DNA from: Escallonia rubra
Lineage: Eukaryota; Streptophyta; Magnoliopsida; Escalloniales; Escalloniaceae
DNA: 64,000 nucleotides
NCBI GenBank assembly: GCA_033065855.1
Contig: JAVXUO010000393.1
Coordinates: 248,001-312,000 of the forward strand
Direction of reading: 5' to 3'
Both the position numbers and the translations under genes were made by a program. Under the pieces are notes generated by a model. That model was not told the origin of the DNA, did no database searches, and saw only the letters and a program-made list of their open reading frames with translations. Each line of letters begins with the position of its first letter. Within the stretch, counting starts at the first letter, position 1. Below, in pieces: positions 3,297 through 62,493 of this stretch.

Positions 3297-6200
3297 TGTG
3301 GTATCAGAGCCACGTTAATCAATTGCATGAACATAGAATTTCCCCTTCAAAATTCTCGAATATTTGAAGAATTATGTTTAACGTTAAAGTGAAGAAGGAA
3401 AAAAAAAAAAAAAAAAATGGGGGCTGCGCCGAAGGGTAAGTTCCAGATTACCTTGTTATGTAATGGGGCCTGTAGTATTGGCCCAGATTAGTAGGCTGAT
3501 TTATTTTTTTATTAGCTCAGTTAATTGGGCCAAAGTAGTCCGGTTTTTGTGGCCTCATGGTGGTGTTATGTTTTGGCCCAACAGAAATTGTATTTAGACA
3601 TGAATTGGGCTTGATTTGTGGCCTGTTGGTTGGCCATGTGGGCTGTTCGTTCGGCCTTCCAGATTGGCCTAGCAAAAGGGCACTGTGGGCTGTTAAATGG
3701 CCCAGCCGAAAGGCTTGTGGCCTGGCCTGTTGTTGTTATGTTTTGTTTGGCCCAGCAAAAGGGAATGGTGACCTGTTATTCAGCCTTGCAAAACTGGGCC
3801 AAAAGGCCAGACCTTGGTTAGGCCTGTTTTAGGCCTCTTAATCGGCCAAAGAGTTGGGCCTGTGTGGCCAGTTGGTATAGACTGTTTAGGCCTTCGAAGT
3901 GGGCTGTTTTGGCCACTTAAAAGTGGGCCTGTAGCTTACTGATTGGGCCTGTTTTGGCCATTTTAAAAATGGATTTTTAGCAGTTGGACTGGTGTATTTT
4001 AATTGGACCTTACAAAATAAAATCTATAACGCCGCTTATGTTTTAATATTGGTTTATTTAGGGATACTGATGAATATAACGTTCCAATATTATTATAATT
4101 TCAAGAATTAGTCTAAAATTACGAGATTATGCTAAAACCTTATGTTCGTTTGGCATGTCTCGACTATGATAATGAACTTGAAATAATTAGTGGTTCTTAC
4201 TTATTTTGGCCGGCCCAACGGAAGTTTATATTTTAATTTTTAAGTAATGATTGCAAAATTATTTTATGCCCAACGGTGATATAATTTGTTCATATTGCTT
4301 TTAATGATTTCCTTGTTAAGGAGGAAAAATACTTGGTTTTGTGTATTTATCTTTTTCATACAAATAAATTGTTTATCTCTCAATTTATTTTATTATGTTA
4401 AATGATGAACTAATTGTCTTCATCATGTGGATTTTCGGTACTAACGTGCATGATTATTGTTATTGTTTAGCGTATAGTCCTGCTGCAATTACTGACTATC
4501 TTTCCTCTATTGAATCATTGAGCGGCACCAATTTTAGAAAATGGAAAGAGCAGATTAGCATAATCCTTGGAGTTATGGATTTGGATTATGCTTTACGGGT
4601 TGACTCGCCTGCTGCCCTTACAGCTGAAAGCTCTACTGAGCAAAAGGCGGCTTATGAAAAGTGGGAGCGTTTCAACCGCATATCCCTAATGATTATGAAA
4701 GGCTCCATTATGACTGCTATTCGAGGAGCCATTCCTGACTCGGATAATGCTAAGCTGTACCTTGCTCATATTGAAGAACAATTTCAGGGTTCTTCCAAGG
4801 CACATGCTACTACTCTCATCACTAAAATGGTTACGCTCAAGTACAGTGGATCCAACGGTGTTCATGAGCATATTTTACGGATGAATGATATGGCTTCTCA
4901 ACTAAAAGGTTTGGACATGGAAATCTCTGAAGGTTTTCTCGTGCACTTTATTATGACTTCCCTTCCTGCGCAGTTTGGTCTTTTTAAGATCAACTATAAC
5001 ACGCAGAAAGAGAAGTGGAAGATGAGCGAGTTGATTTCCATGTGTGTCCAAGAAGAAGAGAGGCTAAAGTTTGAACAGCCTGATAATGCTCACGTTGCCA
5101 TAACTGGTCCATCTAAAGGAAAATGAAAAGGAAAGAAATTTGGCAAAGGTAATGTGCAAGGGAATAAGAGTGCTTCTGTAACCAAGACTGACAAGGCAAG
5201 CTCTTCTGGTACCAAGGGTTCTTCTGGTTCTATGTGTCACTTTTGTAAGGGTAAAGGACATATGAGGAAAAAATGTCATAAATTCAGAGAATGGTTGGAA
5301 AAGAAAGGTAATTTATCTATTTGCGTTTGTTATGAGTCTTATACAATTGATGCTCCTTTAAATACATGGTGGGTTGACACAGGTGCAACTGTGCACATAA
5401 CTAATTCATTGCAGGGATTCCTTTCCGTGAAGAAGTTAAACAAATGAGACCGTAACGCTCTAGTAGGAAATGGAGAGAAAGCTCAAGTTGAAGTTGTAGA
5501 AACTCTCCGTTTAGTTTTGGAAAGTGGCTTCAATTTGGATTTAGTTAATACTGTTTATGTTCCCAGTATGACTAGAAATCTTATTTCTGTTTCTAAACTT
5601 GACGGTTGTGGATATTCATTTAAGTTTGAGAATAAAGGCTTCTCTTTTTTTCTTTATTCTAGAGTTATTGGTTCTGGTTTGTTGGAGGTAAAACCTCTAT
5701 AAATTACTTTTGAATGCTTCTTTTACTGAATCCTTGAAAACAATGAACGTGAATGATGTAGTTGCTAAAACTTGTGGTAAGAGAAAAAGAGAGAATGAAA
5801 ATTCTGCTAAATTGTGGCATGAACGTCTAGGTCACATATCACGAGGCAGAATGGGACGCCTCATTGAGGATGGAATTCTTCATTCTTTAGATTTCTCAGA
5901 TTTTGACACATGTATTGAATGTATTAAAGGAAAATTTGTAAAAGGCAATAAACGTGGTGCCATTCGAAGTACGGGACTTTTAAAGCTTATCCACACTGAC
6001 ATTTTTGGACCTTTTCCTACACCGGGTATTGGTGGTCATATTTACTTTATCACCTTTTATTGATGACTATTCTCGTTATGGATATGTTTACCTCATCCAT
6101 GAAAAATCTGACTCACTTGCCATGTTTAAGACTTACTAAGCCGAAGTTGAAAATCAACTCGACCTAAAGATTAAAGTTGTAAGATCTGACAGAGGCGGAG

Positions 6201-24605: not shown

Positions 24606-27503
24606 GGAGGAATATAAAGGTCTACAAACAAATTAGAATATTTAAATCTTCAAACAGATACTAAGAGTTTAAAAACAATTAGAGAAAATTTAGATTATAT
24701 AAATGAAGTTTTTAAACAATCTATAGGTAAATTGCCGTAAGCATATTGTGATCTTGCTGTTGGTTGCGTTGTATAGAATTTACTTCAATCATTGTTTCTA
24801 TTATTAGTAGTTCCTGAACCCTCACATTCTTCCATGAGAACGTAAGGTACTTCATTCATTAAATTAAATTTTACGTTGTTTGTAGTAATTTGTGTATCTG
24901 TAGATTCTGTTTCAAATGTTAAAGAATATGTTTCGCTATTTAAACATTCTTGTTCTAAGTTTATGCTTTCTACTAATTCAATGTCATTTATTTCTAGTGA
25001 CTCTGTTTTGTCTAGGTGATTTATATTTTCCAATATGTCATCCATTTCTTTTATTAATAACTTATCTTGTCTTATCTTTTCTATTTCTTTTAAAGCTTTG
25101 TTAATTTTGTTATCTAATTCTATTTTATATAATAAAACTCGTAAAAATGGACAGAGACAGTTTAATATAAAAGACATCAGACTCATTAAAACCATCAAAG
25201 AAAAAGTTAAACATTTAGCAGATTTATATCTACCCTTAGACACAGATTATTTAATAGTACAAACCGATGGATGCAAAGAAGGATGGGGAGCAGTCTTATA
25301 CTGCAAACCTAATAAGTATAGTAATAAGAAAGAGGAAATAATATGTAGATATGCTAGCGGTAAGTATAAAGAAAGTAATCAATATTTAACTAGTTTAGAT
25401 TATGAATTACTTGCAATAGTTTACGCCTTAGAACATTTTAAAGCACTTTTAATATCTAAGCATGGATTCTGCATTAGAACAGACTGTGAAGCCATAGTCA
25501 GATACAACAAAAATAAAGACTCTAGATATACCAATAGATGGTTAAAATTCCTGACTTCTTTAAGCAATTATAAAGTAGACAAAATAGAATGGCAACATAT
25601 TAAAGGTATAGACAATTCTATAGCCGATTTACTATCTAGAAAGATTTTATCTTAAGATAACCTTAGACCAATAGCAGTAGAATAAAGATAGTTTTTTCTT
25701 TTCAGATGGCATCATCTTCTTCCGTTCAGACCAGACAAGCTCAGGTAAATCAAGCTAATCCAGTTTTTCCTACACAGTTTACTAGTTACATAGACAATCT
25801 AAGAAAAAATAGAATAAATTACAACGGTAATAATCTAGAGGTTATACATGCTGGATCGAGATTCCAAGTTAGAGATCACAAACTTGGACCTTTTCCCGTT
25901 GACCAGCGAACCCTTTTAGATAACTTATGGCAATCATTTATAAAAAGAGACAACGGATGGTTTGTAAATACCGTCAACGCATTAGCCAATTATTTCAATA
26001 AAATAAGAGACACGAAAAAGTACAATTTTTATTGCGTTTTTAAAGGCATTATGCCAGGCATATTTAAAAGTTATCCTGAAACCATGGTCGGAGGTGTAGG
26101 TAATGTCCATCAACCTTGGTATAAAAGTACTATTACTTTTAATGAAGCAACTACGCTTATGCAGACCCATTATGGGCCTAACTACTACATTACCCCAGAT
26201 TGTCAAGATAGTTCCAATACAGACACCATTGCAAACTGTGAAAACTGCAATACCTTAATTAAACACTTTAATATATTAAAAACAAGACATGATCATGTCC
26301 TTTTAGAAAAATCACATTTTGACATACAGATAGCCCAGCGTAAGGCCCAAAATCAAGTATTAGAATTAGAAGCCAATGACTGGAAAAACATGTATACCAC
26401 TGTTCTTTCTAAACACCAGTCATCAAAACCAACTACTTCCGGGGTTAAAGGAGTAGCTAATCCGGATTCACAGGCTTCCGGTAAAGATAAATCAAGTCCT
26501 GTTATAGTTGGTAATTTACTCAAAATTATTGAAAAACCTTCGAGTTCAGGAAAAAGAACTCCTAATCCAGTTCAACATGTAGCTGGTAAAGACTCATCAA
26601 ACCTCGTTAAAGTTGGAGGTTTACTTAAAATCTCTGAAAATCCTTTAAATTCAGGAGAAAGAACTCCTAGCCCAGAAAAACAGGTATATGGTAAAGGTAA
26701 GTTAATTCCTGAAACTCCTGCCCGTTTGGGTAAAACGGAACAGATAAAAAGAAACAAAAAGAAGGCAAAAAGGCAGGCCTATTCAGTCCAAAAACAAGTG
26801 GCTGAAGCATTTGCTGAAATAATCAGGAAAACTTTTAGCAATATCCACACTATGGGACCCGACAAGACAATAGAAGATTTCAAGAAATCAGCTACATCAA
26901 ATAGCCTTTTCTATGAAGACCCGTTATTTCAGGATGCACAAAGACCCAATAATTTCCAGTGAATCTTCAGAAGATGGAAAAACTAAAGAGACGGAACAAA
27001 AGGCTGAAGACTAGTAGACTCAAGACTCATCTCGCAAAGAAGGATCTTCCAGAAGCAACAACAAGACAAACAGCAGTACAAGCATCTAGACAGCTGTTAA
27101 AGCATTCAGACTACTTTCGGCTATCAGACAAGGACAAAAGAAGACAAGACTTCAGTTTTGTTAGATCAAGAAAACAATAGCAGATATATTATTAGGTATG
27201 TAGAACAAATTTTAGGAAGACCTTTAAACCCCCTTAATAATAATAATGGACAATAATAATTCTAGAAATAGGGCAAACACTTATATTAGCAATACTGAAG
27301 ATCGTTTTGAAGATAATTATGTAGAATTTCGTAAATTTTATGTAGCGTTAGAAATTATTGATGATACAAATGACACTATTAGATTCAATATTTCTGAAGA
27401 CACCTTATCTTTAAAAATATAATCCTTTAAGAAGTTATATTAGTACTTTCATAAATATTGAAGCAATAACAACAGGTATAAATACGTATTTAAAACATTT
27501 AGT

Positions 27504-27505: not shown

Positions 27506-27564
<59 letters not shown>
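27506..27564. repeat. (TA)n tract, left of the MULE
   Basis: An uninterrupted TA run that continues on the far side of the MULE (38924-38977). The MULE target duplication (9 bp, ATATATATA) is hidden in it. Confidence 0.95.
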
Positions 27565-27567
<3 letters not shown>

Positions 27568-27855
27568 AGCTGATCCGTTGAGAGCGTGGGCAAAATAGGA
27601 GAAGTTGCAAACGCGATCTGACCGTCCATCCCGAAAGATGGACGGTCCAGATCGCGTCTTTTTCAAAACCTGTCAGACGTCCGCCATACAGTATGGCGGA
27701 CGGGTTTTTTTTACCAAATTGCCCCTCCCGCGCCTGTCCGCTACACAGTAGCGCGGAGGGCATTAATGTCCTGATGGGAGACAGCAAAAAGTCGTCCGCG
27801 ATACTGTATGGCGGACGGCCCCTAGTCTGACACCTGTCAGGGCCTGTCCCGTCAG
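27565..27855 (+). repeat. MULE left terminal inverted repeat
   Basis: It pairs with 38635-38923 in inverted orientation. It contains a hairpin (GACCGTCCATC...GATGGACGGTC) near 27619-27647 and three of the GTCCGC palindromes (27679, 27736, 27794). Confidence 0.95.
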
Positions 27856-27903
27856 TTTTTTTGGCAATGACGGTTATCAGGTCCTTTCTGTCACGTCAAC
27901 AGT

Positions 27904-27957
27904 GTCCGCTATATAGTTTAGCGGACGTATCGCCATCCGCGGTACTGTATTGCGGAC
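27904..27957. repeat. Two GTCCGC palindromes in the left subterminal region
   Basis: GTCCGC-N11-GCGGAC copies at 27904-27926 and 27935-27957 lie just inside the left TIR, upstream of the PMD-Ulp1 gene. They fit the consensus of the other copies with small changes in the spacer. Confidence 0.85.
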
Positions 27958-28409
27958 GTTCAGTATACTTGCAAACGGCAGTAACTACGGCAGTAACTAC
28001 GGCACCACTCTTCTCCACTCACAAAATATACACTTTCTACGCAATATCCAGTCTTTACCACCGGCGTTGGCAAGCATATCGGCGACATTCCGGTGTTCAA
28101 TATACCCTAAATCGATCACGTAAGTTCACAAAATCTACGATTTTTTGTCTGTAATATTCGGTTAAGATGAATATTGCGTTTTATATATGTATGTTCTTGT
28201 TCTTTGCAAGCGTTTGCAAAATCCGATTCCGTAATAGTATATATATTTATACATATGAGTACATATGCTAACATTGTACGTATCATTCATGTGCTAACTC
28301 GTTATATGTATTATGCATGTGCTAGCGTCGTAGTTTCGCTTCTTATTATCAAAATCCAAAACGTAAAATCCAAACTGAGAAGGTTTTTCCATAATTTCAG
28401 TTGCAAAAA

Positions 28410-31400
28410 ATGGAATTTAACCCTGGACCTGAAGACCCATCCGTGTTATACGACCAAGCTAACCATATCAGTACGCTCATATGGGATGGTGGAGTAAGAT
28501 ACATTATTTATAAACTTTTCTTATTCTTACGAACGTTGTATATACCGTTGAGAGCGCTTAAATTGTATTTATTAATTCGTAGGAAAGAGAACTTGTCAAC
28601 ACCGTAGAAGTATCTCGCGATATAGTATCGTGGAAACTGAACACCGCCCAGAAGAGGATACTGCGTGGAATTGGGTTTGGGATTTTCACGCATGGGCAGA
28701 TATTTCAACAGCTTGACCGGGCCTTGATAGGTGCCCTTGTTGAGAGGTGGAGAAGTGAAACGAATACGTTTCACTTCCCGCTCGGAGAGCTGGCAATTAC
28801 CCTAGAAGATGTAGGGTTCATCTTAGGGTTGCCGGTGACGGGGCTGCCGGTAATTGCTCCTCCGTCAGAAGCAACGAAGACGAGAACCGCTAGGGACTTC
28901 CTCCATTCGATACCCCAGGATAAATTTAGCAGTGGTGGTATAAAGTTGAAATGGTTGGTAGATACGTACGGGGTATTGCCGGAAAACTATACGGGCCATG
29001 AGCTTGTGCTTTACACAAAAGCCTTCCTCTGGTGGGTGATGGGGGCAATTTTATTCCCAACGACGTCGAAGAACACGGCCAGCGTGAAATATTTACCGTT
29101 GTTGAGTAACCTGGCTGAGGTTGGAGATTATGCATGGGGTGCAGCGGTTCTTTCGTATCTGTACCGAGCATTGCACAAGGCAACGAGGCCCGACTCCAAA
29201 GCCATATGTGCATGTCTCTCGCTATTGCAGGTATATCATATAAATCCTGTCTTCGTTATTGTTTTTTTTTGTTTTCGCTTTTGTTGAATCGACGATATAA
29301 ATATAATTTGTCCATTTTTTCAGGTGTGGTCTTATGAACACCTTGCTCCCGGTTCACCGACGCGTAGGGATGGAACCGATAGAGTGTGGCCTCGGTTGCG
29401 TGCTTGGGAGTACAGCCGGAATAATAGCCACTACCGCAGGAGAGTCGATCCCCATCACAACATCACGTTCTATCGAGGGGAGTTCGACCGCCTATCTCCG
29501 GGCCAATTGCGTTGGGCACCGTACATAGGTTTGGCGCGACGGGTTGAAGAGTCGTTCGTCTTCACGCTATCCGGGTTGCAGCGCACACCCCTCATCCACT
29601 TCGAGGTCGCAGAGTGGCAGCTGCCAGACCGAGCAATGCGCCATTTTGAGTTGGAGCAGGGTTTGCCCGCCGGTGCCCCAGATATGAGGGTTAACAGGGA
29701 CCCACCGGATGTCGGGCGGTTTGGCAAGGCCAATGCGCAAGAATTGTGCGCGGCCGAACTAGAGCTCTGGACTTCTTGGCAGGACACACTGGCGGCCATC
29801 GTCTCGGAGCCGGACCCCGTTATCAGCATCGCGGAGTATGATGAGTGGTACTCCCGCATCACGCGGAGGAGAGTAGCCCCAGTCAACTTTGAACGCGGGG
29901 CGAGGTATGCGCCTAGGGGTCAGATCGACGAGCAGATGGCATACAATCTCGTAAGTTGCCCAACTTGTCTTCAATATATCAGAACTGATTAAAGTTACTT
30001 ATTTGTTATCTCTTTGGATGTAGGTTAATGCCTCGCTTGCATTCTTCCAGAAGTTGAGTGAGCGGAAGGATCTGATGAGCGCAATGGGCGAGGATCTTCG
30101 CCAACAGGCTGCTGCACTGGCTATAGGCTGCGGGAATTTTGTGCGGCAAGCATCGGGACAGTCTTCGGTCGACAGCCCGGGAATGGGTTATACGGGCGCC
30201 AGCCCGTATAACGTTGATCCCTCCGGGCAAGCTTCAGGGGTGAGCCAGGGAGTTGGTGGTCCATCTGTACCGGGGATGGGACATGCTCAAGCGTCGTGGG
30301 CCGATTACAGCGGCCCGACCTTCGATTTGTTCCCGGAACCCCAACCCCTCTCTCAGAGTCAAGTCACGCAAGAGTGGCAATACGGTTTTAACGAGGCACT
30401 GCCCATTGTCCCGTGGGCGGGACCGATTGGCGGCACCGAAGGGCAATATCAGCGGGAGGAAGAAATGGCCGGCGAGCAATATCAGCCGGCAGACGCCCCC
30501 GAAGGCGATTATCAGCCAGCCGGGGCCCCCGAAGGCGACTATCAGCCGGCCGATCCGTTGGTTGGAGGCCAATTTCTTCCGTTGCTCTTGCCCCCCGGCG
30601 GAGGGCAAGAGCAACCGGTCGACCCCCGAGGGCAATATCCGAAAGGGCATCCAGCCAGGCCCCTGAAGCCGCATAAACACCACCTAATCCATCACCGTTA
30701 TTTTAGTGGGCCCCCCCCAGACGAAGAGTCGTATGCCGTGAAAAACCCGCAGGGCTTGGATTACAGTGTCTCGTGGAAAGAACTGTCCACGCTGGCGCCG
30801 GGGATGTGGTTAGACAACTTCGTCATCTCGCACTACGTGCAAATTCTGCGGCAAAGGAGTCGGGAGCAGCCTAACTACGGTCCGCGCATTTTTATTCTCG
30901 ACGCTTACTTTCACAATATGCTAGTACAAGACTTTAACGAGTGGGACAAGGCGAGGAAGCAGGCGAGAAAGGCGAAGGCCGAGATGAAGTGGAGACCGTC
31001 TGCTAACCTACTCGCATATCTTGGTCGGCCGAGTCCAGAGCGCGCAAGTGTGGCGGATGTGTTTCTACTCCCTGCTATAATTAATGCCCACTGGTTCTTG
31101 ATTTGCTATGAACCGGTAACGAATACCGTATCAGTCCTTGACAGTCTCTACGATGATACGGACGCGATTGGTGTGATTGAAATGTACGTAGGCTTAGGGA
31201 TGTTGAATCCAATGGTAAGAGCCGGTTTACTTCTTATTGTAACTTGCATACTGTAGAACTGATTAATCGTATTATGTTTGCTATGTCTAATGTTTAATGC
31301 TTATCCTCTTACTCGCAGAATCTATTTGCTGCCATGGTCAATAGAGAGCGTTCTCGAGAGAGCCGAGGGAGGGCAGCGGGCGATAGGGAGGTTGTTTTCC

Positions 31401-31609
31401 GATTGAAGAGGACTAGGCCCAAGCAACTTAATACCTCGGACTGCGGCGTCTACCTCTGCATGTACATGGATTACATCTGTCGGTCGGAGAGCCTCAAGAA
31501 GACCGTCTGGACCCAAGACTGCATAGACTGCTTTAGGTATAGGATGGCTTGGCAAATTATCAATGGCCGGCCTAGACCTATTAGATATATTGTAAATCCG
31601 TGTAATTGA
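28410..31609 (+). CDS. Plant mobile domain / Ulp1-like C48 protease fusion protein (MULE cargo)
   Basis: Five exons with GT/AG introns and an uninterrupted frame: 28410-28493, 28583-29230, 29324-29950, 30024-31214, 31319-31609, giving 946 residues. Residues about 60-440 form a plant mobile domain (aminotransferase-like PMD), with LDRALIGALVERW, LGELAITLEDVGFILGLPV and a Trp-rich middle. Residues about 480-690 are a low-complexity linker with repeats of the GDYQPA/APEG type. The C-terminus is a Ulp1/SENP-type cysteine protease with His809 (NAHW), Asp826 (VLDSL), Gln886 and Cys892 (TSDCG), so the catalytic set is complete. Ulp1 proteases act on SUMO-like modifiers; PMD proteins of the MAIN/MAIL group act in silencing and development. 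A fused role in protecting the transposon is inference. The start is the ATG just after an AG-rich acceptor-like tract. Confidence 0.88.
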
Positions 31610-31653
31610 CAATGTTTGCGTATAATAACGTCCGCTATATATTTTCATGGCTA

Positions 31654-31848
31654 CCACCAAGCGCGTAGGTCAGCTGGTAAGGGGTTGTCCTAGCTTAACC
31701 AGAGGTCTCGTGTTCGAGCCCTGGGAATGCAGCTGCGTTAAAACTTGGTAGGGAGAGCTTTGCCGCCCATGTGGTCCTGCCCGGCTCGAACCCGGATTAG
31801 TCGGCTCCCAATGTGGTGTCCGGAAATCGGGTGGTCTAACCAAAAAAA
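31654..31848 (+). mobile_element. tRNA-derived SINE inserted in the MULE
   Basis: About 195 bp with A-box-like TAGGTCAGCTGGT and B-box GTTCGAGCCC near the 5' end, a second GGCTCGAACCC further on, and an A-run at 31842-31849. A 17-bp target duplication beginning ATATATTTTCATGG flanks it (31637-31653 and 31849-31865). It landed in the 3' region of the PMD-Ulp1 gene and interrupts one GTCCGC half-site, so it arrived after that repeat. It is not a tRNA gene: no cloverleaf continues past the B box. Confidence 0.92.
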
Positions 31849-31865
31849 ATATATTTTCATGGCTA

Positions 31866-32564
31866 TTTGTCCTTAAACTTCTTGAATCTTATCGTTTGAA
31901 TGCGATTGACGATTTCATCTGTGTTGACTGAGATGTGATCGTTGTTGAATGCGATTGATTTGATTCAGTGATATGGTTGTGTTGTTCAGCTGAGTGTTTT
32001 ATTTGTTCTGTGTGATTTGCTTTCAGCAGGGGAGACTAGATATGGCCGAAAAAAAACTAAGTGTTGTGGAAAGTATATTCTGCTTCGCTGTCCGCGATAT
32101 AGTTTAGCGGACGTAAATAGGGCCCCAAAAAAACTAAGTGCTGGGGAGGGAGGGTACATTCTGCTTGGCTGTCCGCGATATAGTTTAGCGGACGTAAATA
32201 GGGCCCCAAAAAAAACTAAGTGCTGGGGAGGGAGGGTACATTCTGCTTCGCTGTCCGCGATATAGTTTAGCGGACGTAAATAGACTAAGTGCTGGGGAGG
32301 GAGGGTACATTCTGCTTGGCTGTCCGCGATATAGTTTAGCGGACGTAAATAGGGCCCCAAAAAAAACTAAGTGCTGGGGAGGGAGGGTACATTCTGCTTC
32401 GCTGTCCGCGATATAGTTTAGCGGACGTAAATAGGGCCCCAAAAAAAACATATATTCCCAACATTTTACATGCTTCAAAAGACGGGATACACCAATTAGA
32501 ATGACATGTGGATGAGTGCCGGTTGGAATGAAATCCTAGCATGCAGTAGAAAGAGATATATATA
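31866..32564. repeat. Tandem array of an about 82-bp unit carrying the palindrome
   Basis: At 32060-32445 five units each contain GGGCCCCAAAAAAAACTAAG, GGGAGGGAGGGTACATTCTG and a palindrome (starts 32090, 32171, 32253, 32322, 32404; spacing 81, 82, 69, 82). The rest of this stretch (31866-32060, 32446-32564) shows no gene. Frames read through the array repeat themselves and are artefacts. Confidence 0.9.
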
Positions 32565-32999
32565 TCACTCTTCATTTGACATATACTCATCAGATAAGTA
32601 CTGATCATTGGTTAAAATATTGTTTCTCTCGTTTGATGTGAGCTGCCTCCCACTAGCCTCGGCCATTTCTTCCGCAAGTTGAAGCATATAAAATCGTTTT
32701 CTACGCAGCAACATCCGGTTATTCTCCATACGAATTTGGCGCACAGCTTTCTTACACTGCGTAACATTACGCCGCGACATAGTAAGTGAACGACGTTGCG
32801 GCACAGGTGCACTCAGCGTGGTGAGATCCTGGTGTAGCGCTTCTGATTCCTTAACTCGATATGCCCATTCTCTCCGTAAACCGCAATAATACTCTCTGGG
32901 ATCCGTGTACTTCACTTCTTTGTAGTCGTCGTTCCTTTCACACAACAACCACACAGTCTCACGTCCCCGCAGACTAGAACTCCCAGGAACTCCTGCCAT
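32565..32999 (-). CDS. Small basic protein of unknown family, paralogue 1 (MULE cargo)
   Basis: A single open frame of 144 residues, starting at 32999. I do not recognise a known domain. The middle and C-terminal half are Arg/Lys-rich and predicted helical by eye, with LRREWAYRVKE, then a PVPQRR motif, then IRMENNRMLLRRKRF, and an acidic C-terminus (SDEYMSNEE). The same order (LR.EW.YR, P.PR/QR, IR.ENNRM, acidic tail) occurs in the divergent neighbour at 33387-33818, so the two are paralogues. That supports both as real genes. A basic helical core suggests nucleic-acid binding or a leucine-zipper-like dimer, which is inference. It is read away from its twin. Confidence 0.75.
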   Translation of the reverse strand: MAGVPGSSSLRGRETVWLLCERNDDYKEVKYTDPREYYCGLRREWAYRVKESEALHQDLTTLSAPVPQRRSLTMSRRNVTQCKKAVRQIRMENNRMLLRRKRFYMLQLAEEMAEASGRQLTSNERNNILTNDQYLSDEYMSNEE

Positions 33000-33386
33000 T
33001 TAACTTTGTTTTGGTTCTAAAGCGATGAGCATGGCTAACATATATAAATAAGCCCACATACCCATACACAATATATTTGTGTGATAGCTACACAATAGTC
33101 TGTCTATCTCTTGTGACAAGACAAGTCGCTGGACATTGAAGATGACAATAGTTGGAGACAACAGCATGCCCGTGTCATAAAGTTGACAAGTCTTTGGTGA
33201 CAAGACAATTCTCTTTGGTGACAAGACAAGTCTCTAGTCTATTGCCAACGTTGGGTCACATCTCATAAAGTAGAAACCGTAGCTCTTTCATAAAGTGGTC
33301 CCGTTTCAAAGTATATATAAGTACATGCATTGCTCATTGCAATGGGCATAGAGTGATATACTCCCAATTTCATAACAACTCTGGAA
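33000..33386. promoter_or_regulatory. Bidirectional promoter region between the twin genes
   Basis: 387 bp separate the two divergent start codons. A TATATATAA box lies at 33312-33320, about 70 bp before the plus-strand ATG, and a weaker TATTTATATA on the minus strand (33050-33041) sits about 45 bp before the other ATG. Between them the string GTGACAAGACAA recurs at least three times (near 33111, 33199, 33219), a candidate shared element. Confidence 0.5.
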
Positions 33387-33818
33387 ATGTCATATACTCC
33401 ACGAGATATTTTTGAAGCAATGGGTCGTTACTGGGCGGGCGAAGATGAATTTTACTATTCTTTGCGTCCAAGTTTGCGTTACTCATCAAGCTATGTGAAT
33501 ACATTACGTGCAGAATGGTCTTATCGGATGAATGAACACGAGGTCCTAGTAGCTGATTCACGGAGCATGAATATACCCATACCTCGACAAAAGGCAATCA
33601 ACATGCCTCGAATTACGCACATGGAGCTTGAAAGGGCACTTCATCGAATACGCGAGGAAAATAATAGAATGCGAGTTCGTCAAAGTAGGCATAACTTACG
33701 TCGTATGGCACGTGATGCACATGAAGATGGCAACAACAATGAAGCACAAGTATACTGGAACATGAGCTTCGAAGAAGGAAATGTTTCCGATGCTCCAGTT
33801 TCAGATGAAGATGCCTGA
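33387..33818 (+). CDS. Small basic protein of unknown family, paralogue 2 (MULE cargo)
   Basis: A single open frame of 143 residues from ATG 33387. No domain known to me. The N-terminus (YTPRDIFEAMGRYW) differs from its twin. The core LRAEWSYRMNE, PIPRQK and IREENNRMRVRQSRH aligns with the minus-strand gene at 32565-32999, and the C-terminus is again acidic (DAPVSDEDA). Roughly a third of core residues match by eye, so the pair is old. It has a good TATA box upstream. Basic-core, acidic-tail proteins of this size could bind DNA or the transposase, but the sequence does not show it. Confidence 0.78.
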   Translation: MSYTPRDIFEAMGRYWAGEDEFYYSLRPSLRYSSSYVNTLRAEWSYRMNEHEVLVADSRSMNIPIPRQKAINMPRITHMELERALHRIREENNRMRVRQSRHNLRRMARDAHEDGNNNEAQVYWNMSFEEGNVSDAPVSDEDA

Positions 33819-33828
33819 AGATCGAGTT

Positions 33829-34204
33829 CTATAGCGGACATAAGGGCCTCCGCTTAGGCCGGGGTTCGGGAAGGTCGGAACTAAGTGTCTGGTCCGTGCC
33901 AACCATTTTCTGGTCCAAGTTGCAGACAACCATTTTTCTCTCCTAGGTCCGCTATATAGTATAGCGGACATCCCCGCATAGGCAAAGTCTCGGACATTTG
34001 ATTGTCCCTACGAGATGTCCGCTATATAGTATAGCGGACAGCTCCGCAGCGGTGGTTCTACGCCCGCACAATACAGTACGAAGCTTACGTCATAGTGGTG
34101 CAGCAGATCGTTGTCTGCAACTTGGATCAGAAAATGGTTGGCACGAACCAGACACTTAGTTCCGACCTTCCTAAGCGGAGGCCCTTATGTCCGCTATGTA
34201 GTAG
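33829..34204. repeat. Inverted repeat, arms of about 100 bp, with two palindromes in the loop
   Basis: The arms 33829-33931 and 34109-34204 are reverse complements with few changes (GGACATAAGGGCCTCCGCTT against its complement, continuing through AACTAAGTGTCTGG and TTGCAGACAA). Each outer end is a half GTCCGC palindrome, and the loop holds full copies at 33947-33969 and 34017-34039. No target duplication is evident. It could be a nested MITE or a structural element; 34205-34537 shows no gene. Confidence 0.85.
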
Positions 34205-34537
34205 AGCTAGAAGTTGTAGCGTTCTGTCTGCAGTTTTAATAAATTGGCTTGTTTTAGTCGCATTGTAGCATAATGCTGTTTTAATAAATTGGCGCCCCGA
34301 AGGCTTGTTTTGGCGTCAGAATCAACAACCTCAATATCGATAAACAATAAAGAACGTAGGATTCACAATCAACGATCTCAATATACCGACGGAATCTCAA
34401 ACGACACAATTAACGTACGATTCACAATCAACGATCTTAATATATCGAGGGAATCTCAAACGACACAATTGAGCACAATTAAGCGAGGAAAAATTTCGAG
34501 GTGATTCAACAACATAAATAATTTTATTAATAATAAA

Positions 34538-35006
34538 TTAGGGTTCACATTGGGGGAAAGAAATTTTTTCACAAGTGCTCCGATCAAAGATTACAACTTG
34601 AAAATCCCACCACCCAAGGTGTTCAAACACTACAAAGTCCCCGAGTTCGAGGCCATGCTGGCGCACGAAGACGTTCCAACCCTCTGCAAATTGCTTTTTT
34701 TGGGGTCGGCCGGGCTTCAGCTTGATTTCAACCTGCCATGCCCCCTTGCGGCTATATAATCTTGCACTGTCATGAATTGTTGTAAATTGATTGGTCAAGG
34801 CTTCCGGTATGTCCTAACAAACACAACACAAAAAATACGTTAGTTTTTAACCAAAACATCAAACCTTTAACACACGACAATACAGAGAAATAGGGATGGC
34901 CTACAAGTTCATTCTCAAACCCCGGCATCATGACTTTGAAAAAGTGTTTGCCTGCCAGGTGCAAGTTGCCAATAAAATCGTTGGTGGTCTCCGATCCAGA
35001 AGCCAT
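34538..35006 (-). CDS. Compact B3-domain DNA-binding protein (MULE cargo)
   Basis: Two exons, 35006-34905 and 34813-34538, joined at GT/AG sites with the frame kept, giving 125 residues. The joined protein reads as a B3 domain: HFFKVMMPGF and ENEL at the end of exon 1, then DIPEAL at the start of exon 2, then WQVEIKL, FAEGWNVFVRQHGLELGD, FVVFEHL and FQVVIFD. The splice falls exactly between the first strand block and the IPEAL helix, which supports the model. It is nearly only a B3 domain, like single-domain REM-type proteins. B3 proteins bind DNA; the GTCCGC palindromes just upstream (35169-35467) are an obvious candidate site, but that is inference. Transposon-borne B3 genes are unfamiliar to me. 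Confidence 0.82.
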
Positions 35007-35168
35007 CGAGGTCGGCGTTGAGGGGAGGACGGATTAACGCCGGAGTTCTGGGCAACCGGAGATGTGGGTGCCGGAGACGGAGTACCGGCAGCAGATGTTC
35101 GAGACAGAGAGAGGTGCCCTCAGATAGGACTGATAGCGATATGATTAATATATATAGTAGGATAGAGT

Positions 35169-35467
35169 TATCCGCCACTTTATATGGCGGACACCAAAAG
35201 TTTTTCTTCGATGACGTTGACGTCCGCTATATTGTATAGCGGACGTAAATGAAGACCAAAAGTTTTACTGCTCATGAGGTCCGCTATATGGTATAGCGGA
35301 CGTGGAAGCCCAAAAGTTTTTCTTCGATGACGTCCGCTATATTGTATCGCGGACGTGAATGAAGACCAAAAGTTTTACTGCTCATGAGGTCCGCTCTATG
35401 GTATAGCGGACGTGAAAGCAGACCAAGAGTTTTTCTGCGATGACGTCCGCTATATTTTATAGCGGAC
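35169..35467. repeat. Palindrome array upstream of the B3 gene
   Basis: Six palindromes at 35169, 35222, 35279, 35332, 35389 and 35445, spaced 53-57 bp, with spacers alternating between two types (AAAAGTTTTTCTTCGATGACG and GACCAAAAGTTTTACTGCTC), so the true unit is a dimer of about 110 bp. The array separates the B3 gene's 5' end from the transposase 3' end. Confidence 0.92.
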
Positions 35468-35614
35468 AAGGCTTAAAAAAAAAAAATTTAAAAAGAGACT
35501 ATACATTTAATTCGATGGCCTCTCATTCTCTCCATTTTTTAATATTTCCAGGCATTCGGAGGAAAAATTATCCCTCCGAAAATTATTACAAATGTCATAA
35601 TGTTGTACAAAAAA

Positions 35615-37912
35615 TTAAAGGTCCACTGCAGCTTGTTCGTCCTCGTCTTCGGCGTCACCTTCTTCCCCGTCTTGCAAACCCCCCGAACTTATCCCCAGTG
35701 CCTTGTAATGGTTCCGCTTGTCGTGGTCGGTCATTTTGTTGCACAATGCACACCTTCGCAGCTTTTTAGGTTGAGTTGCCGTTTCAATAGAGCTTTTCAT
35801 CCGCGTAGATCTCTTGCGGCCTTTCGTTTGCGATATAATTGGGTCCAACAAACAAATATCATTGTCGTCTTCCTCCCCCGGCTCGTCATCTTCTGATACC
35901 CCCGTCGTAGGCTCGGTGTCAATCGCACTGGTGACAGCGGCTGCTTCCAACTGGTCGATGATGGGCTCTTGCTGCTGAGCTACCTCGAGGAGATGTTTAT
36001 AACCGACCATTGAAGCAGCAGCCTTTACGGACAAACGGGTGAAACTCGTCACCAGATGATTATACCGCAACGTCTCCGATTCTTCAAAGTCAGTATACGG
36101 GTGCTCCGGAAAAGCAATGGTACCGTGCAACCTGTTTGCACCTTTCGTCCACCGTGGCAAGACGTATTTATCGGGGATTGTCCTGATATTCTTCTGGGTG
36201 AAAAAGCGCAGAATGTGTCTACACAGGATGCCATGGAACTCAAACTTCTTGCAAACACATGTCACCGAGTCCGTCAATGTGTCGTGGCTCACCGTATACA
36301 TTCTGCGCAGCTTCTCAGGAACGAGGTCATTCACGAGCGAATAAACCTTGTACTCACGCGTAGACTTCTCCGCCACCTTGTTTATACAGTACCGTCCCGA
36401 TTTCTGCAGCTCTACTTGGTATAGCAAGAAGATCTCCTTCGTATAGACTTTGGCACCGTTCAGCTCCAGCGGGGTCTCAAGCAACCTTCTCCTCTGTTTG
36501 TACGTGGTTGCAAAGTCTGCAGCCCTTTCTTTCACGAACAACGACGCAACCGCTTTCTGTGCGGATGTGACGAAACTCTTCAAATTGGTAGTTGTACCCA
36601 CGTAACTATCGAACGTGGCATTCATAGATTCACTCCTGCCCGTCGTTCTCATGCCCGCAGAAAAATGCCTCCTCGTGTAAACGCCAATCCATTGCTCTTT
36701 GAGCTCGTACAAGTGCTGGAGCCACCCGTTGTCTTGCAATGAGTAATCCTGAACAAGCTTTTCCCACCTCTCCTCAAATTCCTCAATAGTTAACGACTTG
36801 CTAACGCACGTGTCAAAATCCTGTTTAAATTCTAGAAACTTTGCGTACACGTGATGCAAACGTTCGGGGTATTTGTTGCTTATGTGCCAAGTGCACAAGT
36901 TGTGTCGAGTATCTGGGAAGACGGTGGCAATAGCCTTCTTCATTGCCAAATCTTGATCGGTGATGATAACGTTGGGTGCTTTGAAGTTCATGGCTTCCAG
37001 CCACACACTAAACAACCATTCAAAAGAACTCTCGCTCTCGTCCCTTAACAAAGCGAACCCGAACAGGATGGAGTGATAATGATGATTGACCCCCGTGAAA
37101 GGGGCAAACGGCATCGAGTACTTGTTGGTACGGTATGTGGTGTCGAAAGTCACGACATCTCCAAAATGCTTATAAGCAAGCCTGGAACGACCGTCGACCC
37201 AAAAAATTGTGCTAACTCGATGCTCGTCGTCAAGTTTATAATCGAAGGTAAACTGCGGGTCCTCCATCTGCATCCGCTTCAATAGGCTCATTGTGGCTTG
37301 AGCATCATTGAGGTCATACGCGGCTCGTCTATGGGTTCGGACCGCGTTGCGAACGTCTGTCGTGTTAAAGTTTAAATTCTGAATTCCCCCGGCCTGTTCA
37401 GCAAGAACATTAATCATGTCGGTAGGTCCTAGACGCGCATCGCTCATTGTGTGAATGAGGCTCCTCGCGACCTTTCCCATCTTCTTGTGTTGATGCATCT
37501 GACTCACCTTAGAAGGGGTTACTAACGGGTGATTGTGTGCCAGTTCCAGGCTGCTAATAAGCCAATGATCTTGCTTGGGTTTATAGCTTACGAACATCTT
37601 GACCTGGCAATTCGTTCGCGCAAAGAAGTCCCGTCTTCTGCGCGAATAGCCTATTTCGTCATCACTGTCCTCGTTGCCTACGCGTGTCTCATTTTGCACT
37701 GGGTTTCTGCCCCTATGGCACTCGTACATACGAGAGCATATCTTTCTCGTTATGTTGCTCGTTCTTGAAGTCTTTATTCTAATGCCAAATCCAACCCTCA
37801 ATGAATACGCTCGGAAACATTCTCCAGCTTCCTCCAATGTTTGAAAGGTTCGTCCTAAATACGGATCACTAGCATCTACGGGGGTGTTGGAGCTCGACAC
37901 GAAATCAGACAT
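35615..37912 (-). CDS. FAR1-type MULE transposase
   Basis: An uninterrupted 765-residue frame. Residues about 20-135 form a FAR1-like (WRKY-GCM1 fold) DNA-binding region ending in LAHNHPL. Residues about 235-440 are the MULE transposase core: Asp257 (TFDTTY), Asp319 (ITDQD) and Glu428 (GRSESMN) fit the DDE triad, with CTWHISNKYPERL between. A SWIM zinc finger follows (Cys552, Cys554, Cys564, His566). The C-terminus has a CALC...H knuckle and an acidic tail. All key residues are present, so it is likely active; it would cut at the TIRs of this element. A 5' UTR intron is plausible (donor at 38357, acceptor at 37927, minus strand). It is read towards the B3 gene, and the promoter lies near 38400. 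Confidence 0.94.
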   Translation of the reverse strand: MSDFVSSSNTPVDASDPYLGRTFQTLEEAGECFRAYSLRVGFGIRIKTSRTSNITRKICSRMYECHRGRNPVQNETRVGNEDSDDEIGYSRRRRDFFARTNCQVKMFVSYKPKQDHWLISSLELAHNHPLVTPSKVSQMHQHKKMGKVARSLIHTMSDARLGPTDMINVLAEQAGGIQNLNFNTTDVRNAVRTHRRAAYDLNDAQATMSLLKRMQMEDPQFTFDYKLDDEHRVSTIFWVDGRSRLAYKHFGDVVTFDTTYRTNKYSMPFAPFTGVNHHYHSILFGFALLRDESESSFEWLFSVWLEAMNFKAPNVIITDQDLAMKKAIATVFPDTRHNLCTWHISNKYPERLHHVYAKFLEFKQDFDTCVSKSLTIEEFEERWEKLVQDYSLQDNGWLQHLYELKEQWIGVYTRRHFSAGMRTTGRSESMNATFDSYVGTTTNLKSFVTSAQKAVASLFVKERAADFATTYKQRRRLLETPLELNGAKVYTKEIFLLYQVELQKSGRYCINKVAEKSTREYKVYSLVNDLVPEKLRRMYTVSHDTLTDSVTCVCKKFEFHGILCRHILRFFTQKNIRTIPDKYVLPRWTKGANRLHGTIAFPEHPYTDFEESETLRYNHLVTSFTRLSVKAAASMVGYKHLLEVAQQQEPIIDQLEAAAVTSAIDTEPTTGVSEDDEPGEEDDNDICLLDPIISQTKGRKRSTRMKSSIETATQPKKLRRCALCNKMTDHDKRNHYKALGISSGGLQDGEEGDAEDEDEQAAVDL

Positions 37913-38634
37913 TGTGAAACAGCTCCCTATATGTAGAAATATAGACTACGCTGAACAATCAAATGACATTTTCAACTGAAAATATTACCTTAAAATTATC
38001 GTGACAAATAGACAAATTTAAGATGACAAATATACCATATACATAATCTCAAAAGTTTCTCATTTTGCTAATTATAGATTTATTGAACATAACAAATTAC
38101 AATTACTAAGAGCGTTAGACAAATTCATCATGCCAAAATACAACAATAGATCTAATAAAAAAATTCGAATTTAAATAGGATAGATGTGCCGAAGTTAGCG
38201 CCCCTCAAAAAAATCCAAAATTAACTACAATAAACTTCTTTAAAGTTAACAAATTAATTTCTAGAACATCATCAGAAATTTATATTTTTTTGCCCAAAAT
38301 AAAAAATATACTTTATCAGTCAATCCACCCAGAAAATATCTGAGATGAGAAACTTACCTTGCTTGAGTGAAGAAGATTGAAGCAAGTTTTACTCGAAGAA
38401 GCTTGAGGGGAGCCAGAAATGGAAGCCAGGTGAACCCGAAGGAGAAGAAAATTTTGCGGGAAGAGCTTGAGAATTTTGCGGGATGAGCTGAGAATTCAGG
38501 AAAGAGAGCTGAGAATCAGGAACCTCGGGGGTATACGGGAAGCACCTGTCCGCGTGCGTGAGGAAATTATTCCGCTCTACTGTATAGCGGATACCTTTTT
38601 TGCTGTCTCGTGTCAGGCAGGGGTCAGTGTCAGG
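37913..38634 (-). promoter_or_regulatory. Transposase upstream region
   Basis: It holds the candidate 5' UTR intron (38357 to 37927) and, near 38390-38530, a purine-rich stretch with repeats of GAGCTGAGAA/GAAGCTTGAG type. One palindrome (38570-38593) lies between it and the right TIR. No other gene is seen. Confidence 0.45.
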
Positions 38635-38921
38635 CTGACGGGACAGGCCCTGACAGGTGTCAGACTAGGGGCCGTCCGCCATACAGTATCGCGGACGACT
38701 TTTTGCTGTCTCCCATCAGGACATTAATGCCCTCCGCGATACTGTGTAGCTGACAGGCGCGGAGGGGCAATTTGGTAAAAAAATCCGTCCGCCATACTGT
38801 ATGGCGGACGTCTGACAGGTTTTGAAAAAGACGCGATCTGGACCGTCCATCTTTCGGGATGGACGGTCAGATCGCATTTGCAACTTCTCCTATTTTGCCC
38901 ACGCTCTCAACGGATCAGCTC

Positions 38922-38923
<2 letters not shown>
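38635..38923 (-). repeat. MULE right terminal inverted repeat
   Basis: The inverted partner of 27565-27855, with the same inner hairpin and three palindromes (38674, 38733, 38787). Differences from the left arm are few. Confidence 0.95.

Positions 38924-38977
<54 letters not shown>
38924..38977. repeat. (TA)n tract, right of the MULE
   Basis: The other half of the TA run split by the MULE. Confidence 0.95.
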
Positions 38978-60343: not shown

Positions 60344-62493
60344 TTAAGCTTGGGAATCCCTTACAGGCTGCTGATTGGCTAAAAAGCTACTGGAATAAAT
60401 ATTATAAACTCTTGAGAGATATGCAAAGGATACCTTAAATATGTAACCGTGCCATGTAAGTGGAAGGACAGCATCATGATCTAATGTAGACTTAATGGCA
60501 GCAATCTCATTCAACTTGTTTTCCATCTTGAGACCCTTGCAGAGCACATTTCTTGTGGCGAAATCGGGCATCATATTCGACTTTCTCATTTCTTCAAAAA
60601 CCCTGTAAGCATCACCAGGCTTGTGACACCAAACATAAGCTCGGATCAGAATCTGAAAGAAATAAACATCCCGCTCCAAATCGCATTGCCCAACCATCGC
60701 AGACAGATACTTGACTGCCTTCAGATCCTTATACTTACGCCCAAAATAGTATATTAGCCCCGTAAATGTCTGAATATCTGGTTGAATTCCGTGCTGAAAA
60801 ATCATTTCATTTAGCATAGCTACCACATCAGAGCCACTGTGGCGTTTCCAGGACAATGTCCGGAAGAGAGAACAGTACAAGATCTTCATATTGAACTCTG
60901 GTAAAGGGTCACAAAATTGTTCAATTTCACGGAGGATCTTGAAGGTAGGATCTACTGTATATATATTATTTTTGTGGAAGTCTATTATTAGTTTGATTGT
61001 AAAGAATGGTAACTTAATACCTTCCCTTTTTATTTTGGACAAGAGTTCATCCATTCGTTCATCATCTGGACCTGATGCTGCTAAAATGTTGATCATTGTC
61101 GAGACTGTGTAAACATTATGCCTGAACCGTCCCCCGGCTTGCTTTTCTCAAGCCACTGGAAAAAATTCCATGCCCTATCAATTCGACGGAGATTCCTAAT
61201 AACTTTGCACACCAATGGAGTTGTCCACTCAAAATCCAGACCCTCAATTGCAAATTCCATATCAGGGTTCAAATTCCAGAATGCATCTTGGAAAAAGCGA
61301 GGCTCCACTTCCATCCGCGGCTGCGTTGGTTTCAACTCAAAGCTTTTGTCTTCATCGTCATCCTTTTCGCTCTCGCTGCGGCTGCTAGTGAAACCAAAAT
61401 CTATGTCCTCAAGACTTCCACTTGTTCCATCCGGCAAGAGTTGTCTGACAAGTGCATCCACATCCTCCACCAAACCCGAGTCCATCATGGACTGCAACGC
61501 CAACCTTGTCGATTGCCCCGGCAATATCCCGTCAAGTCGCATCTCGCAAATCAAACTTCCGACAACATCGAAACTTTCCATTTCGGCAAAGCCCCTCAAG
61601 AGAACGGAATACTGCCTGGCAGTGCGCTTGATTCTCATCCTTGGCAATATATCGAACACCTGCTTAGCAGATTCAAATTTTCCCGCGCTCGCCAAGTGCT
61701 CGATCATGATCGAGTAGGTTCGCGTGTTCGGGATCCGCTTCTCCCTAACCAAGGCATGGAAGATCTTAACCGCCTCCGAGTGGTTCCCGTCGCGTCCATA
61801 GAGGTCCATGACCATGTTAAAGGACTCGGTGCACGGAAGCTTGCCGTGGAAGCCCCGCACGAGCTGGCGCCAAAAATCCAAAAGTGAGCCGAGGTCCCCG
61901 AGGGCGTAATAGTGCCGAGCCAACTCCATCAGGTCCGTAGAATACCAATCACCAGATATTAGCCGCAACCCGGGGATTACGCCGGCTATCGTCGCCTCGA
62001 TTAGGTTATGGAGATCTATAGCGCGGCCAGACTCGGCGAGGACTCGGGCGAATGCGTGCAGGGAATACCTGCTGAGCGAGAATTGCGGGACATGCTGGTC
62101 GAGGGTTTCGATGAGGGAAATGGCAGAATCGGCGGAGGGAGAGGAGCGGAGGGCCTGGGCCAGTACGGTCGGGTCGTCCTTGAGGAGCGGGTCGCTTAGG
62201 AGAGTTATCAAGGGGGCGGTGTTGTTGTCGTCGTTGGTGGAGTGAGGGTGGTGAAGAGCCTGTTTGAGTGATTGGAGGAGCCTAGATTTGCGGACGTAAG
62301 TGTCGACGGTGGTGGCAGGAGCTTCGTCAATGTAGGCGGCGTCTATGTAAGTCTTCAGGTAAGCCCGGCCAACCAGAAGTAATGGGGGCTTCTTCTTGCT
62401 GCTGCGTTTCTGCAACGTTGTTGCCCTCCATACACTGCCGTTCATTTTTCCTTGGGCTCGGCTGCTAAAACCTAAAAGGGGATGACAAAACAT
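60344..62493 (-). CDS. Pentatricopeptide-repeat protein, one apparent frame change
   Basis: Two abutting minus-strand frames: 62493 to about 61130, then about 61130 to 60344. The first holds an N-terminal extension (Ser/Arg/Lys-containing, possibly organellar targeting) and helical PPR motifs such as CTESFNMVMDLYGRDGNHSEA and RTYSIMIEHLASAGKFESA. The second continues with NVYTVSTMINILAASG, DIQTFTGLIYYFGRKYKDL and DVYFFQILIRAYVWC. The joint lies in a run of five G (plus-strand C5, 61131-61135); one extra base there would keep the frame open, so it is either an allele defect or a sequencing error. Total is about 700 residues. A donor at 60433 suggests a short last exon; one candidate (GTT GGC AGA TAG at 59862-59851) is speculative. 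PPR proteins bind organellar RNA. Start could also be Met at 62445. Confidence 0.82.

Follow-up and report, generated by a model that had tools for sequence, protein, structure and literature searches.

A complete Mutator-like element (MULE) of 11,359 bp occupies positions 27565-38923 of the 64-kb stretch of Escallonia rubra DNA analysed here (the window), and most reasonably reads, with a probability of about one half, as a Jittery-type autonomous, TA-targeting MULE carrying an independently assembled module for anti-silencing or self-regulation that acts at a 23-bp palindrome. That the element is a MULE follows from its PF10551 domain, its DDE/C2H residues and its long terminal inverted repeats (TIRs). 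We infer a self-regulating system that binds DNA, for which the layout of the palindrome arrays, not mentioned in the original prediction, is the strongest evidence; the accompanying genes recur as a set in many copies of the element. The features on which the argument draws are as follows, in window coordinates.

27506-27564, unstranded, left target flank, pure (AT)n
27565-27855, plus strand, left TIR, 291 bp, with two full and one imperfect palindrome sites
27904-27957, unstranded, palindrome sites upstream of the PMD gene, one full and one imperfect
28410-31609, plus strand, PMD-Ulp1 gene, 946 aa, one frame in the window copy
28410-28493, 28583-29230, 29324-29950, 30024-31214 and 31319-31609, plus strand, exons of the PMD-Ulp1 gene, with GT-AG introns
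30707-30720, plus strand, junction C tract TGGGCCCCCCCCAG, the meeting point of the PMD and Ulp1 frames
31653-31850 (approximate), plus strand, SINE-like (short interspersed element) insert behind the Ulp1 stop, with a 15-16-bp repeat on both sides
32073-32447, unstranded, tandem array 1, period 82, five palindrome sites
32565-32999, minus strand, small protein A of 144 aa, predicted to form two long helices (pLDDT 82.5)
33387-33818, plus strand, small protein B, 143 aa, a divergent homologue of A
33947-34039, unstranded, two full palindrome sites in a foldback
34538-35006, minus strand, B3 gene, exons 35006-34905 and 34813-34538, 125 aa spliced
35218-35467, unstranded, tandem array 2, period 57/110, five palindrome sites
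35615-37912, minus strand, FAR1-MULE-SWIM transposase, 765 aa, a single open frame
38635-38923, minus strand, right TIR, 289 bp, with two full and one imperfect palindrome sites
38924-38977, unstranded, right target flank, pure (AT)n

The palindrome and its arrays

The palindrome, an inverted repeat of the form GTCCGC-N11-GCGGAC, has 17 full sites in the element and none in the remaining 52.6 kb of the window, and 42 of the window's 44 half-sites also lie inside the element. Allowing up to three mismatches yields 43 strand matches, all within the element, and none in 100 shuffles. Each TIR carries sites, and others lie ahead of the PMD gene, in the stretch that separates B from B3, and in the two tandem arrays. 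This non-coding distribution holds across the family, as the 20 copies scanned (eight of them partial) carry 274 full sites, none of which is coding, in 90,521 bp of coding versus 86,642 bp of other sequence.

The two arrays are unrelated to one another beyond the site, their masked alignment score of 14 being equal to the shuffle mean of 14.0. Array 1 ranges from 1 to 17 units per copy among 19 copies, and within it the half-sites vary in 1.9% of cells, compared with 8.3% for the flanks by substitutions alone and 12.0% when gaps are included, making the half-site frame the least variable of 60 sliding frames. A short motif is thus found in non-coding, tandem and variable arrays, the arrangement that characterizes the targets of VANC proteins.

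The sites between B and B3 lie within a foldback of about 360 bp (33834-34195), situated between the convergent 3' ends of these two genes. Its arms (33869-33933 and 34107-34171) are 95% complementary and carry half-sites at their outer edges, with the two full sites inside.

Genes of the element

The original prediction of an intact 11.4-kb MULE with TIRs of about 290 bp is borne out by the TIRs of 291 and 289 bp, which are 98% identical (four mismatches and two one-base gaps), and by the presence of both transposase and cargo genes. The complete FAR1-type transposase that it named was likewise found, as a 765-aa open frame with three domains (MULE, PF10551, 2.7e-32; FAR1, 2.1e-13; SWIM, 3.7e-5), FAR1 being N-terminal and SWIM C-terminal, and with the DDE/C2H residues D257, D319, E428 and C340/H343 in place. 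Its D-D and D-E spacings are 62 and 109, and those implied by the residues given for Jittery (PMC9569675) are nearly the same, 62 and 110. The B3 protein is also as foreseen, two consistently spliced exons giving 125 aa with a B3 domain match of 1.9e-9; its best match in the PDB, VRN1, is weak (E 0.029).

A pair of twin small basic proteins had been proposed as well. Two homologous open reading frames (ORFs) are indeed present, divergently transcribed and 34.6% identical over 78 aa (E 7e-15), but they are basic only in the helical core (K/R versus D/E 18:10 and 17:11) and not overall, the net charges of the two proteins being +4 and -3. The structure prediction for B is less sure (pLDDT 71.1), with a layout like that of A. 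Judged by sequence this helical pair belongs to no known family, neither A nor B having a significant Pfam match. Eleven matches to A were recovered among 5.8 billion proteins, the two named ones from Daucus carota, and none of them is closer to B than to A.

The PMD-Ulp1 gene of the window encodes a spliced protein with matches to PMD (4.8e-70) and Peptidase_C48 (2.4e-14). The active-site residues H809, D826, Q886 and C892 are present and align with those of SENP2, and H, D, Q and C are retained in 18 of the 19 copies having the region, which marks the Ulp1 module as a predicted peptidase of the Ulp1/SENP type. The fusion of PMD and Ulp1 put forward earlier stands for the window copy, where the frame is open through five exons, but a single frame is not typical of the family. 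The C tract at which the two frames meet is 12 nt long in the window and 11 nt, hence out of frame, in 13 of 18 sister copies; of the other sisters, two have 12 nt together with a 23-base deletion upstream of the tract, and single copies have 10, 13 and 15 nt. A T interrupts the C run in three of the 11-nt copies (C889, C137 and C1985), so an error in run length is by itself an insufficient explanation. In many copies the PMD frame continues without a stop as far as the tract, and the Ulp1 frame starts directly after TTTTAG; an unrecognised intron, slippage or two separate products are each possible at this junction.

Two annotated E. rubra proteins (P0133/P0134) share 92% and 84% identity with the PMD part, and the first three exon joints agree with theirs. 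One of these relatives stops before the Ulp1 part and the other continues into a PPR protein. P0134 (RJ640_023953) resembles a chimera, in which a C-terminal piece weakly similar to FAR1 (E 1e-6) is combined with an element-like PMD and with a PPR protein. The PPR part of P0134 is 49% like the window's own PPR gene at 61195-62460. Genes of the element seem to contaminate the host annotation of E. rubra.

Copies in the genome and selection on the gene set

The element and its gene set are present in many copies, and most of the genes are under constraint. A TIR search of the window's genome gave 62 matches among 40 of 2,634 candidate places scored, and these scored places include nine same-contig inverted TIR pairs, the window's among them, with spacings of 5-12.4 kb (11.2-12.4 kb for eight of them, 5.2 kb for the ninth). 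The pair at 5.2 kb, G000:C2160:721960-727118, is an internal deletion derivative with both TIRs, and therefore non-autonomous members exist. Among the best 59 of 4,782 candidate transposase matches all 59 are full length at 98-100% identity and 51 are without a stop; among the best 150 of 1,355 candidate matches to A all 150 are full length at 94-100% identity and 145 are without a stop. Protein A lies 2.5-3.2 kb from the transposase, on the expected side and strand, at 51 of these 59 best-scored places and not at the other eight.

Eleven other copies were chosen from the TIR matches and fetched, making 12 with the window. Both TIRs and all five genes are present in seven of the 11, as anticipated by the earlier expectation, checked here in the window's genome, that the gene set should recur within matching TIRs. 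One further copy (C794) has all five genes and is cut by a contig end, another (C898) is only partly covered by the fetched stretch, and a third (C1475) has, in the stretch fetched, no transposase and lacks most of B3; the deletion derivative C2160 is also among the 11. If the junction tract is disregarded, stops and frameshifts are absent from three of the eight complete gene sets (C1890, C2355 and C103); in the remaining five, stops or small deletions affect PMD-Ulp1 or the transposase. In these first fetched copies A is without indel or stop in 10 of 10, and B has an in-frame 15-base deletion in two of 10. Eight more diverged copies, or parts of copies, were then added from low-ranked A matches; A is open in all eight, B has a stop or frameshift in four and B3 a stop in two.

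The ratio of nonsynonymous to synonymous change (dN/dS) was obtained with our own counting script, excluding gapped and stop codons, and judged by a one-sided Fisher test on distinct changes, whose p values are rough because the copies share ancestry. Pooled values are 0.22 for the transposase (11 copies, p 1e-4), 0.36 for A (19 copies, p 0.007), 0.29 for B (19 copies, p 0.007), 0.37 for B3 (17 copies, p 0.03), 0.49 for the linker (16 copies, p 0.006) and 0.71 for Ulp1 (19 copies, p 0.004). Pooled synonymous difference is 0.3-1.6% by gene part in the first 12 copies and 3-8% for A, B, B3, linker and Ulp1 once the diverged copies are included. The proposal that cargo dN/dS lies below one therefore holds for A, B, B3 and Ulp1 but not significantly for PMD. 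Since the set recurs in matching TIRs and dN/dS is below one for these four, the cargo is the element's own and not a chance capture, as the original prediction had also argued in supposing it used by the element.

A model for the element and its alternatives

We propose a model in which the element, which is high in copy number and inserts into TA microsatellites, would be autonomous, recently active and, presumably, active today. Its accessory proteins would recognise the palindrome, most likely through a single partner that binds DNA (PMD, B3 or the A/B pair), and the sites so bound would be those in the non-coding DNA of the copies, TIRs included. Action at these sites would keep the family expressed, either by anti-silencing or by self-activation, and Ulp1 may contribute by stripping SUMO from silencing proteins. 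Element-encoded anti-silencing or self-activation is favoured because the layout repeats the VANC/PMD/Ulp1 logic with other parts. The division of roles suggested in the original prediction, with B3 and the small proteins binding DNA, Ulp1 altering SUMO-type marks and PMD evading silencing, is conjectural. More tentatively, with rather less confidence than in the model at large, the element may be the second instance, independently assembled, of sequence-specific anti-silencing among plant transposons, here placed on a FAR1/Jittery-type MULE, in which a PMD and SUMO protease module (joined by splicing or by C-tract slippage), B3 and the helical pair would act through the arrayed palindrome.

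Several observations weigh against this model. The frame running from PMD through the tract into Ulp1 is without a stop there in only two of 19 copies, the window and C173, and C173 stops further on. For PMD dN/dS is 0.64 (12 copies, 25 nonsynonymous to 10 synonymous changes, p 0.29), so that constraint is not significant among these young copies, and for B it is 1.89, from seven changes, among the first, close copies, whence the constraint on B rests on the diverged copies. One of the element's 42 half-sites lies in coding sequence, and the promoter shared by A and B contains no palindrome site. In array 1 a second frame is nearly as conserved as the half-sites (2.1%), and in array 2 the half-sites vary by 1.6% against 2.7% in the flanks, an unclear contrast. 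Finally, no match above cut-off was found to PF09331 (DUF1985), the VANC domain.

The main rival, which we consider possible yet doubtful, is that the transposase, or a regulator of transcription encoded by the element (B3 or A/B), binds the palindrome, which would then serve transposition or ordinary control of expression and not anti-silencing. The two full sites and one imperfect site in each TIR fit such a role, as do the B3 domain and the FAR1 DNA-binding domain encoded by the element, and an inverted repeat would suit a dimeric binder. However, internal blocks that are separated from both ends by more than 3 kb contain 12 of the 17 full sites, and a transposase is not known to need sites there; the variation in array length, moreover, fits targets like those of VANC.

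It is improbable that the arrays are neutral satellites or sources of small RNA that grow by slippage, the site being passive and only the genes being used. Tandem arrays do expand by slippage, and this explanation gains from those columns of array 1 outside the site that are as conserved as the half-sites and from the unclear contrast in array 2, but it sits poorly with two arrays that are unrelated outside the site and with the recurrence of the site in the TIRs as well as in the interval from B to B3. That host genes were captured by chance in the manner of a Pack-MULE, and are open only because the insertion is young, would accord with the low synonymous difference of the first 12 copies but is highly improbable and already contradicted by the same gene set in many copies and by dN/dS below one once more diverged copies are added. 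The two named outside relatives of A, both from Daucus carota, also speak against it.

Relation to known elements

The Jittery clade is group 36, with FAR1 N-terminal, SWIM C-terminal and TIRs of 39-292 bp (PMC6446971), and by sequence our element carries these listed marks, its TIRs falling within that range, with the exception of a single ORF. Unlike Jittery group 36 and AutoMuTAnT, which are listed with one ORF, it has five gene units, 11.4 kb and palindrome arrays. AutoMuTAnT, a Jittery-like element of 4,873 bp, inserts into TA microsatellites (PMC4486113), and the present element resembles MuTAnT and AutoMuTAnT in its insertion into (TA)n: TA repeats of at least seven bases adjoin all 21 ends reached in the 12 copies, window included. 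The target duplication, 8-11 bp in MULEs, is unreadable in the window because both flanks are pure (AT)n, and their phase is compatible only with an odd length, e.g. 9 bp. In related MuTAnT copies lying outside perfect repeats the duplications are of 9 bp (PMC4486113).

In VANDAL elements, VANC proteins bind to short motifs located in fast-changing non-coding tandem repeats (PMC5735166) and clear DNA methylation from the entire element (PMC5735166, PMC10398659), and a review describes VANC genes with a Ulp1 domain (KIU, Kaonashi; PMC13317346). Our element is like VANDAL and VANC-KIU in being a MULE with accessory genes, a motif in variable non-coding tandem repeats and, as in KIU, Ulp1, and unlike them in having PMD rather than DUF1985, another and palindromic motif, a FAR1-type transposase, long TIRs, B3 and A/B. 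Membership of VANDAL/VANC was rejected, there being no DUF1985 above cut-off (the best, E 0.023, came from one exon ORF and was not listed for the spliced protein) and no copy of the VANC21 motif YAGTATTAY in the window. The VANC6 motif occurs three times in the window, once inside the element. Assignment to the Pack-MULEs, which carry random host fragments with no conserved set, was rejected on the linked set in many copies and on dN/dS.

Parts of the module are already known separately. Ulp1 is carried by Jittery-like MULEs of grapevine and melon (PMC2528002), as it is here, and the accessible text of that paper describes no PMD, B3, small-protein pair or site arrays in them. PMD has been captured by MULEs, for which its authors propose anti-silencing (PMC5418596), and the 2019 table of Dupeyron et al. 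places PMD in groups 42 and 45-50 and not in the FAR1/Jittery group 36 (PMC6446971); our element shares PMD with these MULEs and differs from them in being FAR1/Jittery-type. The full gene set with palindrome arrays was not found in the open-access literature, insofar as portions of it were available. Sequence-specific anti-silencing has been demonstrated by experiment for the VANDAL elements of Arabidopsis. If our model is true, such systems arise repeatedly, here on another type of MULE, epigenome editing would gain a further palindrome-protein pair, and transposon-borne PMD and Ulp1, whose role the papers available propose but do not test, could be examined directly on a defined site.

Relatives in other species were sought as protein-level matches. 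Among the matches listed, the closest transposases are two proteins at 46-47% together with proteins of Daucus and Apium. In a tree of the window transposase with 48 of the 120 listed matches, and no Jittery sequence included, the window falls within a group of 19 rows supported at 100/100, whose named members are all Daucus or Apium. Because the named relatives of both are Daucus or Apium, a common lineage of transposase and protein A is suggested, as far as the sampled organism names tell.

Other features of the window

The remainder of the window showed no nucleotide match to the element, and GC content in 2-kb windows is 44-52% inside the element versus 29-46% outside. The SINE-like insert is missing from all 10 other fetched copies that cover its position and is therefore probably younger than the window copy itself. 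It contains A- and B-box-like stretches, and ARAGORN found no tRNA in the window. Remains of retroelements lie near the element, namely a Copia-type gag ORF at 4395-5126 and, at 25035-26962, an ORF for reverse-transcriptase RNase H and, behind it, one of 418 aa that weakly matches Cauli_VI.

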